Shown: positions 1 through 6,980 of the stretch, piece after piece | Layout of the letters: every line of letters starts with the position of its first letter | How positions within the stretch are numbered: the stretch's first letter is position 1 | From: an uncultured Shinella sp. | GTDB lineage: Bacteria > Pseudomonadota > Alphaproteobacteria > Rhizobiales > Rhizobiaceae | NCBI GenBank assembly: GCA_946481465.1 | Contig: CAMLOC010000191.1 | Span: forward strand, 1 to 6,980 | Reading direction: 5' to 3' | DNA length: 6,980 nt | Made by a program: the position numbers and the translations under genes | The notes under the pieces: model-generated | Told to the model about the DNA's origin: nothing | The model's input: only the letters and a program-made list of their open reading frames with translations | The model's database searches: none

Positions 1-1000
1 GTGCGCCGTGCGCCTTGGCGACGAAATCGCCGCGGCTGAGGCGGTATTCCCAGCGGTCGCCGAGATAGATGCTGTCGTCGAGGTCCATTTCGAGGCCGCC
101 CGCCTCCGGCCTGTCGCTGACGCTGATCTGTTCGACGCGGATGACGGCGCGGGCCTCCTCGGCGGCGCTGAGGCCGGCCGCCTCGCGCACCGTGCCGTCG
201 AGGCTCCAGTTGTCGCCGCCGATGACGGCCGCCTTGCCGTCGACGGCCTTCACCCTGGCGCTGACGATGTTGTTGGCCCCGAGGAAATCCGCCGAATAGA
301 AGCTGTTCGGGTTGGAATAGATCTCCTGCGGCCCGCCCTGCTGGACGATCCGGCCGTCCTGCAGGAGCAGGATATTGTCGGCGGCGGCCAGCGCCTCGCT
401 CTGGTCGTGCGTCACGAGGATGGCGCAGATCTCGAGGTCGAGGATCAGCTTGCGGATCCAGTAGCGGGCCTCCTCGCGCAGCTTCGCATCGAGGTTGGAC
501 AGGGGCTCGTCGAGCAGCAGCACGCGCGGCTCATAGACCAGCGCCCGGCAGATCGCGACGCGCTGCTGCTGGCCGCCCGAAAGCTGCGAGGGGAAGCGGT
601 CGGCAAGATGGCCGAGGCCCATGCGCTCGAGGATCGCCTGGACGCGCTTTTCGATATCGGCCTGCGCAACGTTGCGCAGCTTCAGCCCGTAGCCGACATT
701 CTCCTTCACCGTGCGGTGCGGCCAGAGCGCGTAGGACTGGAAGACGAGGCCGATATTGCGCTGCTCGGGCGGCAAGGCGAGCTTCTTCTCGCCGTCGAGC
801 ACGGTCTTGCCGCCGATGACGATCTGGCCGATCTCCGGCTGTTCGAGGCCGGCGACGCAGCGCAGAAGCGTCGTCTTGCCGCTGCCGGAGGCGCCGAGCA
901 GGGCGACGATGGAGCCGCGCTGCGCGGTGAACGACGCGCCCTTCAGGATCTGCAGGCCGCCCAGCCACTTCTGGACATTGCTGACGACGAGTTCAGTCAT
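1..1000 (-). CDS. ABC transporter ATP-binding protein, iron/carboxylate (FbpC/PotA-like) type, 3' end cut by window edge
   Basis: Cytoplasmic ATPase that powers the importer formed with the permease and binding protein next to it. The reading frame is open from the ATG at 1000 to the left edge, giving 333 residues with the C-terminus missing. Visible motifs: Walker A GASGSGKTT (36-44), Q-loop FQSYALWPH (Q88), ABC signature LSGGQQQR (140-147), Walker B VLLLDEP (160-166), D-loop SNLD (168-171) and H-loop VTHD (H198). After about residue 240 comes a TOBE-like C-terminal region (NNIVSARVKAV..., VIRVEQISV...), as in FbpC, PotA and UgpC ATPases. The start lies inside the end of the permease gene (ATGACTGA, 8-base overlap), so translation is probably coupled. 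The motifs fix the function; they do not fix the substrate. Confidence 0.96.
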   Translation of the reverse strand, partial: MTELVVSNVQKWLGGLQILKGASFTAQRGSIVALLGASGSGKTTLLRCVAGLEQPEIGQIVIGGKTVLDGEKKLALPPEQRNIGLVFQSYALWPHRTVKENVGYGLKLRNVAQADIEKRVQAILERMGLGHLADRFPSQLSGGQQQRVAICRALVYEPRVLLLDEPLSNLDAKLREEARYWIRKLILDLEICAILVTHDQSEALAAADNILLLQDGRIVQQGGPQEIYSNPNSFYSADFLGANNIVSARVKAVDGKAAVIGGDNWSLDGTVREAAGLSAAEEARAVIRVEQISVSDRPEAGGLEMDLDDSIYLGDRWEYRLSRGDFVAKAHGA

Positions 1001-2753
1001 GGATTTTGGCTCCCAAACGGAGGGCGAGGGCAAGGCCTGCGCCCGTCAAGACGATGCTGATGAGGGAAAGGGCGGCGATGGTGTTCATGGCGCCGGTCTG
1101 GAGAAGCGAGACCATCAGCGAGCCGATGACCTCCGTGCCGGCGCCCATGAGGTAGACGCCCGTCGCATATTCGCGCAGGAAGATGATCATGATCAGCGCC
1201 CAGGCGCCGGCAAGGCCGGGCCGGACGATCGGGATCACCACGTCCTTCCAGGTGCGGCCGATCGTGGCGCCGGTGGTGCGGGCGGATTCCTCCAGTTCCG
1301 GCGCCACCTGGATGAGCGTGCCCTGGAGAAGCCGCAGGCCGTAGGACAGGCCGACGACGACATAGGCGATGAACAGGCTGACCAGCGTCGGGCGCAGCGG
1401 CGTCAGGAGCGGCACGAAGAGGAACACCCAGAAGAAGGCGAGGCCGATGACGAGGCCCGGCAGGGCGCGCGGCAGGAGCACGATGTAGTCGAGCACGGTG
1501 TTCGACAGGCCCCAGTTGCGGTGTCCCGCAAGGCCGACCATCAGGTAGATGCCGACCGCCACGGCGCCGCCGACGACGGAGAGCAGCACGGTGTTGACGA
1601 TGCCGCGCACCAGGCTCGGCACTTCGAACATGCGGTCGAAATTCGAGAAGGTGAGCTGGTCCCACAGGTTGACGCCCTCGCCCCAGGCATCGACGAAGGC
1701 GCGCACCGCAATGCCGCCGATCGGCAGGAGGACGGAAACGAACAGCCAGAAACCGATGATCGACAGCGCGATGACCTGGCCGCTCGTGCCGAGCTTCAGG
1801 GTGGCGACGCGTGCGCCCTTGCCGCCCATCGCGGCATATTTGCGGGCATTGCGCAGGAGCTTGCGCTGCATCCAGACGAGCGGCAGCGTGATGAGGATGA
1901 GCACGACGGCGACCACGGCCATGAGCTGGTAGGTGGGCGTGCCGAACAGCGTCGTCAGCTTGTAGATATAGGTGGTGAGCACCATGATGCCGTTCGGATC
2001 GCCGAGGACGAGCGGAATGCCGAAGGTCTCGAAGCCGAGCAGGATGTTGAGCGCGGCCGCGAAGATCAGCGCCGGCAGGACCATGGGCAGCGTGACGTCG
2101 CGCGAGACCTGCCAGATGGAGGCGCCGGTGGTGCGGGCGGCCTCCTCGAGGTCCGACGGCAGGTTGCGCATGGCCGAGGAGACGTAGAGATAGACGTGCG
2201 GCACATGGCTGAGGCCGGCGATCAGGATCATGCCCGGCAGGCTGTAGATGTTCCACGGCACGAAGCCGAGGACGCCGCGGATGAAGAGCGAGACGAAGCC
2301 GGTCGGCCCGACCGACACCGTGTAGCCGAAGGCCAGCACGATGGACGAGATGAACATCGGCACCAGCACAAGGATTTCAAGCAGGCGCTTGCCCTTGATG
2401 TCCGTGCGCGTCACGAGGAAGGCGAGCAGGCCGCCGAGCGGCACGGCGATGGCGACCATGCCGAAGGAGAAGACCGCCGTGGTGCCGAGCGCCTTGTAGA
2501 AATTCCTGTCGGTGAAGACATAGATATAGGCATCGAGGCCGAACCGCGCGCGCGGGCTGAAGAAGGCCGCCGTCAGGAAGCTCTGGTAGATGATCAGGCC
2601 GACCGGCGCCAGGACGGCGATGGCCAAGAGCCCGATGACGATGCGCCTGTAGAGGCTGGCATTGCCGTGGCGCGGCATCCTTGCCGGATATTTCTTTTCG
2701 GCCGCGGCCCTGGACAGGTCCAGCGCGGCCGGCGCTTGAGCGTGGGTAGACAT
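993..2753 (-). CDS. ABC transporter permease, fused two-domain (FbpB/AfuB-like)
   Basis: Inner-membrane channel of the importer, 586 aa. It has two BPD_transp_1 units in one chain, the usual arrangement and about the usual length for FbpB/AfuB/ThiP-type permeases, so one polypeptide replaces a permease dimer. The first membrane segment is about 38-59. Unit 1 runs to about 300 and unit 2 from about 320 to 580, with roughly six hydrophobic segments each. Each unit carries the cytoplasmic EAA loop that docks on the ATPase: EEAARTTGAS at 203-212 followed by DVTLP, and EESARTTGAT at 488-497 followed by DVVIP. The similarity of the two loops shows internal duplication. The ATG at 2753 is preceded by GAGAGGCTAGGA. 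The stop overlaps the ATPase start. The binding-protein gene ends 66 bases upstream. The family handles Fe3+, thiamine, phosphonates, sugar phosphates and others, so the substrate is open. Confidence 0.95.
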   Translation of the reverse strand: MSTHAQAPAALDLSRAAAEKKYPARMPRHGNASLYRRIVIGLLAIAVLAPVGLIIYQSFLTAAFFSPRARFGLDAYIYVFTDRNFYKALGTTAVFSFGMVAIAVPLGGLLAFLVTRTDIKGKRLLEILVLVPMFISSIVLAFGYTVSVGPTGFVSLFIRGVLGFVPWNIYSLPGMILIAGLSHVPHVYLYVSSAMRNLPSDLEEAARTTGASIWQVSRDVTLPMVLPALIFAAALNILLGFETFGIPLVLGDPNGIMVLTTYIYKLTTLFGTPTYQLMAVVAVVLILITLPLVWMQRKLLRNARKYAAMGGKGARVATLKLGTSGQVIALSIIGFWLFVSVLLPIGGIAVRAFVDAWGEGVNLWDQLTFSNFDRMFEVPSLVRGIVNTVLLSVVGGAVAVGIYLMVGLAGHRNWGLSNTVLDYIVLLPRALPGLVIGLAFFWVFLFVPLLTPLRPTLVSLFIAYVVVGLSYGLRLLQGTLIQVAPELEESARTTGATIGRTWKDVVIPIVRPGLAGAWALIMIIFLREYATGVYLMGAGTEVIGSLMVSLLQTGAMNTIAALSLISIVLTGAGLALALRLGAKIHD

Positions 2754-2819: not shown

Positions 2820-3920
2820 TCAGCGGCCGAGGGCTGCCTTCCAGTCGTTGAAGAACTGGACGCGCTTGGTCGGGTCCATGTATTCGAGCACGCCCTCATC
2901 GACCGCGATCGGCTTCAGGCCGCCGCCGACACGCTCGTTCAGCGTCTTGATGTTGAGGCCGGCGGTCACGTCCTCGCGCACGGAGGGCAGGCCGCCCTCG
3001 GCGAGCAGCGACTGGCCTTCGCTCGACAGCATGAAATCGATGAAGAGCTTTGCCGCGTTCGGGTGCGGCGCATCCTTCGTCACCAGCGCGAGGCGCGAGA
3101 AGGCCGGCGTATAGTCGGTCGCAAAATGCACGCCGAGGTTCGGGCTCTCCTTCACCCAGTCCAGCGCGTAGGAGCCGATGATGTTGATGGCGATGACGTT
3201 CTCGCCCGAGACGACCGTCTCCTTCATGCCGCCCGAGCTGGAGTAGATCTTCGCGCCGTTCTCGCCCATGGCCTTGGCGAGATCCCAGAAATCCGCGCGG
3301 TTGCGCGCATCGTTGGAGTGGTGGAGGAAGCCGGAGCCGCTCTTTTCCGGATCGAAGGTGGCGACCTTGCCCTGAAGCTCCGCCTTGTTGTCCTTCAGGA
3401 AGGTGATCAGGTCGGCATAGGTCTTCGGCAGCTTGTCCTCCGACAGCGCCTTGGTGTTGTAGATGACGCCGACCGGCTCGACGGTCGTGCCGTAGAGCAT
3501 GTTCTTGTAGTTCGCCCAGGCGGGAACGTTGCCGGCCTCCGGCGAGGCATATTCCCCGGCATAGCCGTCCAGCACCAGCGTCATCTGGAGGTCCATGGCC
3601 GAGCTCCAGACCACGTCGGCGGTCGTCTGGCCGGCGGCGGCCTCGGAGATCACCTGGTTGTAGGCGCCGTTCGTGCCGAGGTCGTTATAGGCGATCTTGA
3701 TGCCGTATTTTTTCGTAAAGCCGTCCTGCAGCTTCTGCGACTGGGCCGCGTCGGTCGAGGTGTAGATCGAGACCGTGCCCTCCTCCTTCGCAGCGGCGAC
3801 GATCGCCGCATAATCGGCCGGATAGCCGGCCGGAAGCTCGTCGGCCGAGGCGCCGAAGGCAGTCATGAGCGCGGTGCCGAGCACAAGGGCGGCCGCGCGG
3901 GCGGATAGGTTGCTGTTCAT
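2820..3920 (-). CDS. Periplasmic solute-binding protein of the ferric-iron ABC family (FbpA/AfuA-like)
   Basis: Captures the substrate in the periplasm and delivers it to the permease; 366 aa. A signal peptide is visible: one Arg (R8), hydrophobic core ALVLGTALMTAFG, and an ASA|DE cleavage site after A26. The mature part has the two-lobe extracellular solute-binding pattern: VSIYTSTDAAQSQKLQDGF near 50-68, ADVVWSSAMD (101-110), the hinge stretch VGVIYNTKAL (150-159), and a C-terminal block with AAKLFIDFMLSSEGQ (289-303). The ATG at 3920 is chosen because GGGAGAAG lies just upstream and it directly begins the signal peptide; an in-frame TTG at 3935 would place the ribosome site inside the gene. 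The Tyr-Tyr pair that binds Fe3+ in FbpA proteins is not evident; the comparable region reads NIIGSYALDW (246-255). The ligand is therefore probably not bare iron. Confidence 0.93.
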   Translation of the reverse strand: MNSNLSARAAALVLGTALMTAFGASADELPAGYPADYAAIVAAAKEEGTVSIYTSTDAAQSQKLQDGFTKKYGIKIAYNDLGTNGAYNQVISEAAAGQTTADVVWSSAMDLQMTLVLDGYAGEYASPEAGNVPAWANYKNMLYGTTVEPVGVIYNTKALSEDKLPKTYADLITFLKDNKAELQGKVATFDPEKSGSGFLHHSNDARNRADFWDLAKAMGENGAKIYSSSGGMKETVVSGENVIAINIIGSYALDWVKESPNLGVHFATDYTPAFSRLALVTKDAPHPNAAKLFIDFMLSSEGQSLLAEGGLPSVREDVTAGLNIKTLNERVGGGLKPIAVDEGVLEYMDPTKRVQFFNDWKAALGR

Positions 3921-4010: not shown

Positions 4011-4039
4011 GTGTTTTGGTTTTTGACAAATCAAAACAC
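4011..4039. promoter_or_regulatory. 29-base AT-rich palindrome upstream of the transporter operon, candidate operator
   Basis: GTGTTTTG (4011-4018) and CAAAACAC (4032-4039) are perfect inverted arms around a centre at 4025. Twelve of the 14 symmetric pairs across the whole element match. It lies 12 bases beyond the dehydrogenase stop and 91 bases before the binding-protein start. It stands out as AT-rich in GC-rich surroundings and shares TTTTGGTTTTT with the other two palindromes in the window. It is unlikely to be a terminator because the arms are weak and no GC stem plus T-tract is present. I infer an operator, most likely for the GntR protein encoded nearby. I see no convincing -10/-35 pair around it. 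Confidence 0.6.
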
Positions 4040-4050
4040 AAACAATGCCG

Positions 4051-5139
4051 TCAGGCGCGCTTGCGCTCGCCGTCGCCGTTTCGAACCGCACCCGCCACGC
4101 GGGCGCCGAAGGCGTCGGTATTGGTGGTGCCGCCGAGGTCGCGCGTACGCGAGCCCGGATCGGCCAGGACCTCGTCGACGGCCCGCTCGATCTCCGCGCC
4201 CGCCGCCTCGAATTGCGGCAGGCCGCGCTGCTCGCCGAGCCAGCTCAGCATCATCGCGGTCGACAGGATGAGCGAGGTGGGGTTGGCGATGTTCCTGTTC
4301 TGGATGTCCGGGGCCGAGCCGTGCTGGGCCTGGGCGCAGACGAGGCCGGTCTCGGCATTGGCGTTGATCGAGCCCGCAAGGCCGAGGCTGCCGGAAAGCT
4401 CGCTGGCAAGGTCCGACAGGATGTCCGAATAGAAGTTCGTCGCGACGATCACGTCGAAACGCGAGGGATCGCGCACCAGGTGGGCGGCCATCGCGTCGAT
4501 GATGACCTCGTTGAGCGCGACCTCCGGGAACTCGGCCGCGACCTTGTGCACCTGCTGCAGGAACAGGCCGTCCGTGAGGATGAAATTGTTGGCCTTGTGG
4601 ACCGCGGTCACCTTCTTGCCCCGCTTCATGGCGAGCAGGAAGGCCTGGCGGGCGATGCGCTCGCAGGCGGAGGCCGTGATCTTGCGCACCGACAGGGCGA
4701 CATCCGGCGTCGGCATGAATTCGCCCGTGCCGGCGAACATGTTGCGGTCGGGATAGAACCCTTCCGTCGCCTCGCGCATGATGACGAGGTCCATCGCCTT
4801 GGCATCGTTGAGGAACGGGCGCGAGCGCGCCGGGCGCACATTCGCATAGAGGTCCAGCTTGACGCGGAAGCCGGCCGAGACGTTCGCGCCGCCCTTGTCG
4901 CGGGGCGGATAGTCCATGTGCGACTGCGGGCCGAGGATGATGCCGTCGAAGGTGCGCGCCCGCTCGATCGTCTCGTCGCGCAGCGTCGTGCCGAATTTCT
5001 CCAGGCTGGTGAAGCCCGTGTCCTCGAAGTGGTATTCGAGGCCGAGACCGAAGGCCGCGTCCGCGACCTTCAGGACCTCCATGGTTGCCGCAGTGATCTC
5101 GGGGCCGATCCCGTCACACGGCGTCACGAATATTTTCAT
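4051..5139 (-). CDS. NAD-type isocitrate/isopropylmalate dehydrogenase family protein (beta-decarboxylating)
   Basis: Cytoplasmic enzyme, 362 aa, of the family that oxidises a 2-hydroxy acid to the 2-oxo acid and removes the beta-carboxyl as CO2, using a divalent metal. Landmarks: GDGIGPE-like DGIGPEI (9-15); arginines R92, R102 and R122 for the malate part of the substrate; catalytic Tyr in EGFY (Y129) and Lys in HKANN (K182); metal-binding aspartates D215, D239 and D243 (the last two in SDILSD); and the cofactor loop HGSAPDI (273-279). The Asp-Ile there (D278-I279) is the NAD+ signature; NADP+ enzymes have Lys-Tyr. The substrate helix lacks the Leu-Leu of isopropylmalate dehydrogenase (N86, S88 instead), so a polar substrate is likelier. 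GGGAG at 5153-5149 favours the ATG at 5139; an ATG at 5148 has GGGAG touching it. The exact substrate (isocitrate, homoisocitrate, a tartrate or another alkylmalate) cannot be read from the sequence. Confidence 0.9.
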   Translation of the reverse strand: MKIFVTPCDGIGPEITAATMEVLKVADAAFGLGLEYHFEDTGFTSLEKFGTTLRDETIERARTFDGIILGPQSHMDYPPRDKGGANVSAGFRVKLDLYANVRPARSRPFLNDAKAMDLVIMREATEGFYPDRNMFAGTGEFMPTPDVALSVRKITASACERIARQAFLLAMKRGKKVTAVHKANNFILTDGLFLQQVHKVAAEFPEVALNEVIIDAMAAHLVRDPSRFDVIVATNFYSDILSDLASELSGSLGLAGSINANAETGLVCAQAQHGSAPDIQNRNIANPTSLILSTAMMLSWLGEQRGLPQFEAAGAEIERAVDEVLADPGSRTRDLGGTTNTDAFGARVAGAVRNGDGERKRA

Positions 5140-5194
5140 CAGATCCATCTCCCATGAGGCGGCGTGCGATAGCGCCGCGCAATGTCACGGGAGC

Positions 5195-5224
5195 AGTATT
5201 GGCTTTTTTAATTCAAAAATGCAA
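5195..5224 (-). promoter_or_regulatory. Candidate dehydrogenase promoter enclosing an AT-rich palindrome
   Basis: The 88-base gap between the regulator stop and the dehydrogenase start holds a 21-base imperfect palindrome (5202-5222, centre 5212, 8 of 10 pairs matching) with T5 and A5 arms. It is preceded on the plus strand by ATTGGCTTTT (5198-5207), the same 10 bases found inverted at 6256-6265. A weak minus-strand promoter can be drawn around it: TTGCAT (5224-5219), 18 bases, AATACT (5200-5195). In that reading the palindrome fills the spacer, where a bound repressor would block polymerase. The promoter hexamers are low confidence; the palindrome is clear. Confidence 0.5.
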
Positions 5225-5227
5225 TCC

Positions 5228-6154
5228 TTATTTTTCGGCATCCTCTTTTCCGTGCGCCTGGTGCGACCAGGACCAGGCGACCGGCGACTTTTTCGACAGC
5301 GCGCCGCCGAGGTGCCGGCGCATCGTGTAGGAGGCCTCGACGATCTCCCCGCGCTCGAGAAGATCGAGGATCCCGAGATGCTCCTGGCATTGCCGCACCG
5401 TGCGGCTGCGGTCGACGCGCGAGCGGTATTCGAGCAGGCGGCGCATGCGGTTCACGCGCACCAGCGAGAGATGGAAGAACGGATTGTTCGACATCTTGAT
5501 CAGCTCTTCGTGGAAGAACGCGCCGTTGTGCAGCAGGCGCTCGGCCGGCAGGCGCTCGATATCGGTGTCCAGCATGCGCTGCTGGATGCGCCGCTGCTCC
5601 TCGATGATCTTCCGGTCGAGGCTGAATTCCGGCTCCAGCATGGCGGCCGGCTCGATCAGCATGCGGAAGCGATAGATCTGCTCGAAGGCCTCCGGCGTCT
5701 TGGCCACCGGCAGGAAGCGCCAGCCGTAGCCCTGCTTGCGCTCCGCCCAGCCTTCGCGGGTGGCGCGCATCAGGACGTCGTTGAGCTGCGACTTCGTCAG
5801 TTCATAGCGCTCGCGCAGCATCTGCTCGGTCACCTCGGCGGGGATGCGGTCCGTCAGCCAGTCTTCCGCCAGCCGCTGGTAGTCGTTCGCCACCTCGAAC
5901 GGCTCGGCGTCGTCGCGCACCCGCTCGACGATGCCGCCGGCGATTTCCCGCACGAAGAAGCCGCGGTTTTCCTTCTGCTCCAGCAGGCCCTGGCTTGCCA
6001 GCATGTCCATCGCCTCGCGCACCGGCGAGCGCGAGACGCCGAACCGGTCCGCCAGCTGCTGGGTCTTCACATGGTCGCCCACCGCAAGCTCGCCGGAGGT
6101 GACGAGAAGGGTGATTTCGTTGGCGATCGTCTGGGCAAGCTGGCTGGAGCGCAT
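5228..6154 (-). CDS. GntR-family (FadR/FCD subfamily) transcriptional regulator with an extra winged-helix-like segment
   Basis: DNA-binding regulator, 308 aa, probable local repressor. Residues 1-70 form the GntR winged helix: start QLAQTIANEI, helix-turn-helix TQQLADRFGVSRSPVREAMD (31-50), wing ENRGFFV. Residues about 155-285 fit an all-helical FCD effector domain with three expected His ligands, H215 (FFH), H259 (EHL) and H281 (RHL, 22 residues on, the usual spacing). The Asp normally four residues before the first His is G211. The stretch 92-148 (RERYELTKSQLNDVLMRA, REGWAERK, GYGWRF) looks like a second winged helix, making the protein longer than the usual 220-250 aa. The ATG at 6154 is chosen because the GntR domain begins there; a GTG at 6295 would add 47 unrelated residues across the promoter region. 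The ribosome site is weak (GAAAG). FCD ligands are commonly carboxylic acids, which suits the neighbours. Confidence 0.92.
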   Translation of the reverse strand: MRSSQLAQTIANEITLLVTSGELAVGDHVKTQQLADRFGVSRSPVREAMDMLASQGLLEQKENRGFFVREIAGGIVERVRDDAEPFEVANDYQRLAEDWLTDRIPAEVTEQMLRERYELTKSQLNDVLMRATREGWAERKQGYGWRFLPVAKTPEAFEQIYRFRMLIEPAAMLEPEFSLDRKIIEEQRRIQQRMLDTDIERLPAERLLHNGAFFHEELIKMSNNPFFHLSLVRVNRMRRLLEYRSRVDRSRTVRQCQEHLGILDLLERGEIVEASYTMRRHLGGALSKKSPVAWSWSHQAHGKEDAEK

Positions 6155-6253
6155 GTCTTTCGTGTCCCGGATCTGTCTGAGGGCCTGTGGCGAGGTTATT
6201 CCACGGCCGGCGCAAAAGAAACAAGGGGCCGGTTTCTTTGCATGTCTGACGGT

Positions 6254-6282
6254 ATAAAAGCCAATGGCTGGCCCGTTTCCAA
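6254..6282 (-). promoter_or_regulatory. Candidate regulator promoter with overlapping half-operator
   Basis: On the minus strand TTGGAA (6282-6277) and TTTTAT (6259-6254) are 17 bases apart, a plausible -35/-10 pair that would give a leader of about 90 bases for the GntR gene. ATTGGCTTTT (minus strand, 6265-6256) overlaps the -10 and is identical to the left arm of the palindrome before the dehydrogenase gene. This suggests autoregulation. The sequence AGCCAATGGCT (6259-6269) is also a small perfect palindrome. Confidence 0.45.
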
Positions 6283-6312
6283 TTGACATTCGCACATAAT
6301 TGGTTTTTTAGA
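6283..6312 (+). promoter_or_regulatory. Candidate aconitase-gene promoter
   Basis: TTGACA at 6283-6288 is a perfect -35 consensus. The -10 is not clear: TTTTAG at 6306-6311 lies at 17-base spacing and falls inside the AT-rich palindrome. Transcription would begin about 20 bases before the ATG at 6341. The -35 abuts the regulator's proposed -35 (6277-6282), so the two divergent promoters are nearly back to back. Confidence 0.5.
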
Positions 6313-6323
6313 TACTAAAAATC
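6298..6323. promoter_or_regulatory. AT-rich palindrome in the divergent control region, candidate GntR operator
   Basis: TTTTTAG (6305-6311) and CTAAAAA (6315-6321) form a perfect inverted repeat around ATA, with an outer G/C pair at 6303/6323. It is preceded by AATTGG (6298-6303), itself the inverse of CCAATT at 6279-6284. It overlaps the expected -10 and start of transcription of the aconitase gene, the classic position for repression. It shares TTGG plus a T-run, and an A-run on the right arm, with the palindromes at 4011-4039 and 5202-5222. Confidence 0.6.
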
Positions 6324-6328
6324 ACTTT

Positions 6329-6341
6329 TTGGAGTCTCCAA
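6329..6341 (+). promoter_or_regulatory. Ribosome-binding site of the aconitase gene within a small perfect palindrome
   Basis: GGAG (6331-6334) lies six bases before the ATG at 6341 and fixes that start. It is embedded in TTGGAG-T-CTCCAA, perfect over 6+1+6 bases and ending on the A of the start codon. In RNA it could form a four-pair stem (UUGG/CCAA) that hides part of the ribosome site; in DNA it could be a minor protein site. Its TTGG also resembles the operator half-sites. Confidence 0.5.
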
Positions 6342-6980
6342 TGGCGCAGCGGATCGAAACGGCCGAGGGAACCGTCAGGCTCGTTTCGCTGGGCGATGCC
6401 TTTCCGGGCCGGCTCGAACGCCTGCCGGTCGTGCTGCGGATCCTGCTGGAGAACGTCGCGCGGCGCGATCCCGGCCGGCTGGCCGCCTTCACCGAAGCGC
6501 TCGACCGCTGGCTCGACGAGGGCACGAGCGAGGCGGAGGTCGATTTCCACCCGTCCCGCGTGCTGATGCACGACACGACCTGCGTGCCGGCGCTGGTGGA
6601 TATCGCGGCGATGCGCGACGCCGTCGCGGAAGCCGGCGGCGATCCCGCGGCGCTGACGCCGGTTCTGCCCGTCGACGTCTCGGTGGACCACAGCGTGGCG
6701 GTCGACTGGTACGGCCGCCCCGGCGCGCGCGAACACAACATGCGCCGCGAAATGGAGCGCAACGGCGAGCGCTACCGGCTGATGAAATGGGCGACCGCCG
6801 CGCTGCCCGGCGTGCGCGTCCATCCGCCCGGCACCGGCATCATGCACACGCTGAACCTCGAACAGCTCGCCACCGTCATCGGCATCGAGGAGCGCGACGG
6901 CGAACGCTGGGCCGCGCCCGACACGCTCATCGGCACGGACAGCCACACGCCGATGATCAACGGCATCGGCGTGCTGGCCT
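6341..6980 (+). CDS. Aconitase-family hydro-lyase (AcnA/AcnD-like), 3' end cut by window edge
   Basis: Cytoplasmic [4Fe-4S] dehydratase/isomerase that moves a hydroxyl group in tri- or dicarboxylic acids; 213 N-terminal residues are visible of a protein that is usually near 900. Recognisable blocks: LPVVLRILLENVARRD (28-43), HDTTCVPALVDIAAMRD (77-93), PVDVSVDHSVAVD (110-122), ERNGERYRLMKWA (139-151), PPGTGIMHTLNLE (162-174) and GTDSHTPMINGIG (198-210). Active-site residues equivalent to mitochondrial aconitase D100-H101, H147 and D165-S166-H167 are present as D116-H117, H169 and D200-S201-H202. The cluster cysteines lie beyond the window. H77 sits where AcnA/IRP1-type enzymes have Gln (QDFTGVP), so it may not be an ordinary citrate-cycle aconitase. 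Its divergent position next to the regulator, dehydrogenase and importer suggests a pathway-specific paralogue acting before the dehydrogenase. Confidence 0.93.
   Translation, partial: MAQRIETAEGTVRLVSLGDAFPGRLERLPVVLRILLENVARRDPGRLAAFTEALDRWLDEGTSEAEVDFHPSRVLMHDTTCVPALVDIAAMRDAVAEAGGDPAALTPVLPVDVSVDHSVAVDWYGRPGAREHNMRREMERNGERYRLMKWATAALPGVRVHPPGTGIMHTLNLEQLATVIGIEERDGERWAAPDTLIGTDSHTPMINGIGVLA

Follow-up and report, generated by a model that had tools for sequence, protein, structure and literature searches.

A conserved palindrome as the predicted operator of a two-winged-helix GntR/FCD regulator in a Shinella transporter, dehydrogenase and aconitase locus

The window analysed here is a stretch of 6,980 bp from an uncultured Shinella sp. 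(contig CAMLOC010000191.1 of assembly GCA_946481465.1), with a G+C content of 61-68%. It encodes an ABC transporter, a dehydrogenase, a regulator of the GntR family with an FCD domain, and an aconitase-family protein, and its intergenic regions carry palindromes. The original prediction for this DNA placed three palindromes, each before a different transcription start, and proposed a small regulon of regulator, aconitase, dehydrogenase and transporter. Our analysis supports a genuine regulon with an unusual regulator and operator: the palindromes are very probably operators of the GntR/FCD regulator encoded between them, which would repress the uptake and breakdown genes. The genes and sites are as follows, with agreement to the motif described below scored out of 18.

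2-1000, minus strand: ABC transporter ATPase gene, truncated by the window edge; start set from an annotated Shinella homologue
993-2753, minus strand: ABC transporter permease gene, with two BPD_transp_1 stretches
2820-3920, minus strand: ABC transporter solute-binding protein gene
4011-4039, no strand: palindrome of the original prediction (centre 4025), with 12-nt arms that are 92% complementary; overlaps the operator at 4016-4041, 3.5 bp off its register
4016-4041 (centre 4028.5), minus strand: predicted operator of the ABC transporter operon, scoring 15/18 and lying 96-121 bp upstream of the ATG of the solute-binding protein gene
4051-5148, minus strand: isocitrate/isopropylmalate dehydrogenase family gene (PF00180)
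5199-5224, minus strand: predicted operator of the dehydrogenase gene, scoring 18/18 and lying 51-76 bp upstream of the ATG
5228-6154, minus strand: GntR/FCD regulator gene (gntR), 308 amino acids
6238-6264, gntR-acnA gap: fourth, looser site TTGCAT...AAAAGCCAA with a spacer of N9, 16/18, 84-110 bp upstream of the gntR ATG
6300-6325, plus strand: predicted operator before acnA, 14/18, 16-41 bp upstream of the acnA ATG
6341-6979, plus strand: aconitase-family gene acnA, truncated by the window edge

Side-by-side comparison of the upstream regions of related loci (homologues more than 60% identical, among those listed) revealed that the palindromes are copies of one 26-bp motif, TTGSMTTTT-N8-AAAAKSCAA. 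The strings on which the original prediction was built are all in place: ATTGGCTTTT occurs at 5198 on the plus strand and inverted at 6256, ATTGGTTTTT at 6299 and TTTTGGTTTTT at 4014, and neither TTGGCTTTT nor TTGGTTTTT has another occurrence in the window on either strand. The inverted copy of ATTGGCTTTT (6256-6265), however, is one arm of the fourth site at 6238-6264, which had been overlooked as a site; this site starts 62 bp before the start of the acnA operator. The palindrome before the transporter likewise marks a real site, though the centre given for it, 4025, is not that of the operator. As a local palindrome 4011-4039 is in fact the stronger of the two, and at the transporter sites of several relatives (loci L001, L005, L006, L008, L020 and L027 of our set) two registers fit, 7 bp from each other, which may explain why the earlier palindrome is out of register. 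Each predicted operator precedes a gene or operon; the transcription starts themselves are only predicted. All four sites are intergenic, and consensus and string scans found no comparable element within the genes of the window, as had been claimed.

A matrix of 26 columns was built from 82 sites of other genomes, none of them from the window. It scores 43.4 for 5199-5224, 25.5 for 4016-4041, 32.0 for 6300-6325 and 10.6 for 6238-6264 read with a spacer of N8. These are its four best non-overlapping places in the window, the next scoring -5.7. The best matrix score was 16.0 in 200 shuffled windows and 23.8 in 300 shuffles of the three intergenic stretches, so on matrix score alone 4016-4041 passes narrowly and 6238-6264 does not pass. 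With the consensus, sites scoring 14 turned up 0.025 times per shuffle in 200 dinucleotide shuffles of the window, and no site scored more. In 1000 shuffles of the three A/T-rich intergenic stretches, a set held on average 0.05 sites scoring 14 and 0.006 scoring 15.

These figures also bear on the notion that the palindromes act as intrinsic terminators or owe their A/T-rich symmetry to chance, which we consider extremely improbable. It is true that the dehydrogenase and gntR genes end just before the sites at 4011-4041 and 5199-5224, respectively, and the shuffles confirm that weak symmetry arises easily in A/T-rich intergenic DNA. Against this, no T tract follows the A/T-rich arms, the acnA site lies behind no gene, the sequence and the N8 spacing are conserved, and the shuffles fall short of the matrix scores. 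An intrinsic terminator, with a G/C-containing stem and a T tract, was rejected because a consensus terminator scan gave none at the palindromes, and chance symmetry was rejected by the shuffle tests.

Conservation was examined in a close set of 33 clusters, comprising 30 of the 80 genome loci together with three from plasmids, in which regulator, dehydrogenase and solute-binding protein are each more than 60% identical. The search covered 150 bp before the dehydrogenase, 250 bp before the transporter and 150 bp before acnA homologues of at least 60% identity. The original prediction had hinged on conservation upstream of orthologues, and this is what was found: a site of at least 15/18 precedes the dehydrogenase in 33/33 clusters (starting 67-86 bp before the start codon), the transporter in 24/33 and acnA in 19/26. 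Of the seven clusters without such a site before acnA, two reach a score of 14 and one a score of 13; the remaining four (L002, L012, L013 and L028) have acnA kilobases from gntR, in L002 within a same-strand run behind the transporter, otnK, otnC and rraA.

Because the consensus was learned from the close loci, the other 50 loci, all outside the matrix, were used for a further test. They hold 86 sites of at least 15/18 in 42,165 bases upstream of cluster genes and 11 in the remaining 846,694, an enrichment of about 150-fold, and 43/50 carry such a site. The excess is highest at spacer 8; spacers 7 and 9 are raised too, partly because the T runs allow a reading one base off. Across all 80 loci there are 170 sites upstream of cluster genes and 23 elsewhere, with 73/80 loci carrying a site, while 20 permuted-arm controls averaged 4.5 and 2.9. 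The motif and this GntR gene occur together in loci of Rhizobiaceae, Bradyrhizobium, Rhodobacterales and Granulosicoccus.

The motif is also nearly exclusive to the cluster. Whole genomes were scanned with the pattern TTGNNTTTTN8AAAANNCAA, match positions being allotted to the cluster manually from coordinates. The first 12 genomes (about 71 Mb) contain 21 exact sites, two of them overlapping, of which 20 lie in the cluster. So do all six exact sites in a second set of 12 more distant genomes (about 63 Mb), giving 26/27 over the 24 genomes. The lone outside site, in Devosia (L107 6362-6387), is on the same contig as the Devosia transporter site and about 12 kb from it. By eye, it lies 147 bp before an open reading frame resembling a peptide-type solute-binding protein and near the start of a divergent permease-like one. 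A reversed control pattern with up to one mismatch gave 2 and 10 matches in the two genome sets, against 42 and 33 for the true pattern. The sites are thus largely absent from the rest of the genome, as for a single local regulon.

As controls we took five dehydrogenase homologues, 60-69% identical, on other plasmids. That of Pantoea has a site of 16/18, and its plasmid encodes, about 11 kb away, a GntR protein 47% identical to the window's regulator, the closest of the control GntR homologues. For the plasmid of Shinella sp. HZN7 the GntR search gave partial matches only. Operator and regulator therefore seem to fade together, in a comparison of five cases only.

Several results weigh against the view that the palindromes are operators of the neighbouring GntR protein. 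In nine of the 33 close clusters the transporter site scores a weak 10-14 of 18, and the 33/33 count before the dehydrogenase is partly circular, the consensus having been learned from the same clusters. The test on the left-out loci was not blind, the dehydrogenase upstream sequence of some having been viewed beforehand, and seven of the 50 (L035, L039, L041, L055, L057, L060 and L075) have no site of at least 15/18. One permuted-arm control reached 48 sites and one 35 loci; presumably the maximum comes from a near-copy of the true arm. Among one-mismatch matches only 29/48 fall in the cluster (13/21 in the first 12 genomes and 16/27 in the further 12), so the outside minority is near noise. 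Four of the five control dehydrogenases have no site (best 11-12 of 18 within 400 bp), and those on the Paraburkholderia, Cupriavidus and Roseomonas plasmids lack it next to GntR homologues of 43%, 42% and 37% identity. The GntR protein is proposed as the binder from co-occurrence, and the GT-N3-AC core known for FCD regulators is absent from the motif. Another regulator, encoded elsewhere, might then read the palindromes, with the GntR gene a mere neighbour. We judge this improbable: the site accompanies the GntR gene across the four groups named above, a single exact site outside the cluster in 24 genomes suits a local regulator, and among the control dehydrogenases only that of Pantoea has a site, on the very plasmid that encodes the closest control GntR homologue.

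The regulator itself has an N-terminal GntR winged helix (PF00392, residues 6-68) scoring 77.8 bits against a cut-off of 27, and a C-terminal FCD ligand-binding and oligomerisation domain (PF07729, residues 159-282) scoring 48.2 bits against 24.3. Between them, both the sequence and the structural model show a second winged helix of GntR type, within residues 86-152 (window 5699-5899). Its wing motif, G-Y-G-W-R, is invariant in 54 aligned proteins. The best 50 structure matches to the whole model all belong to the GntR family; their alignments span 207-333 columns, their target TM-scores do not exceed 0.54, and relative to these 50 the extra domain is taken as an insertion. A profile of the second domain searched against PDB sequences had an irrelevant best match (6vj6, E 0.0023) and weak FadR matches (E 0.15 and worse).

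TKGT/ACMA boxes, with GT and AC usually 3 nt apart, are common, though not universal, in the FCD subfamily (PMC4494728). They are absent here, the consensus of the 82 sites having a weakly conserved N8 centre; since NanR and BioR are other exceptions (PMC4494728), the missing core does not exclude membership. With the FadR/VanR-type FCD regulators of that account the system shares a winged helix with an FCD domain, a palindromic operator, neighbours in acid metabolism and a divergent gap; it differs in the extra winged helix, the 26-bp operator, the 9-bp arms and the lack of the GT-N3-AC (TKGT/ACMA) core (PMC4494728). Atu1419 of Agrobacterium fabrum (VanR group; PDB 6z74/6za3), unlike the protein described here, has one winged helix per subunit, and its operator is the 10-bp palindrome ATGTATACAT (PMC7797058). 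No description of this regulon, of its operator or of a GntR protein with two winged helices was found among titles and the beginnings of abstracts, a search that took in few subscription papers and did not extend to RegPrecise. The doubled winged helix and the non-canonical operator lift the finding above the routine.

A bolder proposal, which we put forward tentatively, is that the protein represents a two-headed GntR/FCD subfamily. Its duplicated winged helix would give four heads per dimer, jointly reading a long two-block palindrome (a TTG and a T4 block in each arm) laid on promoter elements, and from rhizobia to marine Rhodobacterales the same device would control an as yet undescribed pathway for a sugar acid or a tricarboxylate. 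Should the second winged helix bind DNA as well, the large GntR family would have a new means of extending the DNA that it recognises.

The position of the sites relative to the predicted promoters speaks to mechanism. On the minus strand at the dehydrogenase operator, TTGCAT (5224-5219) and CAATAC (5201-5196), separated by N17, can be read by eye as a -35/-10 pair. The operator starts with TTGCAT in 29/33 close loci, and in 25/33 its end leads into CAATA at N17, so that it likely covers the stretch from -35 to -10. The acnA operator begins 11 bases past a TTGACA (6283-6288), which also precedes the site in many relatives, and would therefore cover the -10. A strict-consensus sigma-70 scan of the window gave no promoter at the operators, the -35/-10 reading coming from relatives aligned by eye. 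The palindromes of Atu1419 similarly sit on the -10 or between -35 and -10 (PMC7797058). Placement over the core promoter argues for repression.

In the proposed mechanism, one operator would lie on or beside each of three promoters, serving the dehydrogenase, the ABC transporter with the genes behind it, and acnA, with the fourth, looser one in the gntR-acnA gap. As long as the pathway substrate is absent, the regulator would cover the core promoter and block RNA polymerase, probably as a dimer whose subunits each carry two winged-helix heads. Binding of a pathway acid to the FCD domain would release it from the DNA, turning on uptake and breakdown genes together. Binding of the motif by this protein, dimerisation, the ligand and the assignment of heads to blocks are what we infer, as is repression in preference to activation; FCD regulators are reported to bind carboxylic acids (PMC4494728).

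The fourth site is part of a recurrent arrangement, a site of at least 15/18 with an N9 or N10 spacer being present in 10/15 gntR-acnA gaps, the window included. In all ten, there are exactly 35 bases between its right arm and the acnA operator, despite differences in the intervening sequence. The site might serve as gntR's own operator or act as an auxiliary one at a distance of about six helical turns; common descent could also account for the constant distance. This site sits upstream of the acnA TTGACA, the usual position for an activator, and with its fixed distance it fits a regulator that reads the same operators and activates with its ligand. That is the manner of CitO of Enterococcus faecalis, likewise an FCD regulator of tricarboxylate metabolism, which is reported as a citrate-dependent activator binding upstream of the cit promoters (PMC4746285), in contrast to the repressor proposed here, and which is likened to it by description, not by sequence. 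That some FCD regulators activate counts against repression. Still, the two operators are not both upstream: that of the dehydrogenase lies over the likely -35 to -10 region and that of acnA begins 11 bases past TTGACA. Activation seems unlikely to us beside the repression set out above.

The proposed composition of the regulon is supported as far as it goes, and the regulon is probably larger, there being sites before other genes in relatives. Where gene order changes, the site follows to other genes: in Agrobacterium it precedes a semialdehyde-dehydrogenase operon, and in Rhizobium it stands before a gene for a chemoreceptor and one for a methyltransferase, the latter annotated as trans-aconitate methyltransferase. 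Chemotaxis may thus be part of the regulon. In relatives the transporter run continues into genes for a racemase-family protein, an OtnK-type kinase and an OtnC-type aldolase. The sites and neighbours concerned are these.

L003 13359-13384: operator before a HAMP/MCP chemoreceptor gene
L003 17225-17250: operator between a solute-binding protein gene and a methyltransferase gene
L001 5195-7777, L003 4303-7803 and L103 2785-7700: OtnK kinase, OtnC-type aldolase and Asp/Glu-racemase-family protein genes

OtnK and OtnC presumably act in breakdown towards dihydroxyacetone phosphate, so these neighbours, with the added sites, point to uptake of an organic acid and its breakdown in that direction. 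The operator can be used to gather further pathway genes and so narrow down the substrate. Operator and regulon stand ready for experiment, for a regulator and a pathway with no described function found, in root-nodule and marine bacteria.

Some observations on the loci remain. An amidohydrolase gene is among the neighbours in L003 and L103, a gene for a DeoR-type regulator lies beside the same enzymes in Pantoea (L103), and one racemase homologue of L001 carries the label arylsulfatase. The closest plasmid records to the window, those of Shinella sp. WSC3-e and WSD5-1, are 88.2% identical across its whole length, and the closest regulator among genome contigs, 97% identical, comes from a metagenome bin. 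Perfect 18/18 sites lie about 0.9 kb upstream of gntR at L012 9049 and L025 9095, preceding further genes. In Rhodobacterales, site pairs with starts 33 bp apart occur upstream of gntR (L036, L040, L045, L047, L049, L058, L063 and L079, among others), for example:

L040: sites at 9659 and 9692
L058: sites at 9678 and 9711
L079: sites at 9486 and 9519

This spacing, about three helical turns, suggests cooperative binding. An uncultured Nioella genome (G015) has two copies of the regulator, at L036 and L066, with sites nearby.

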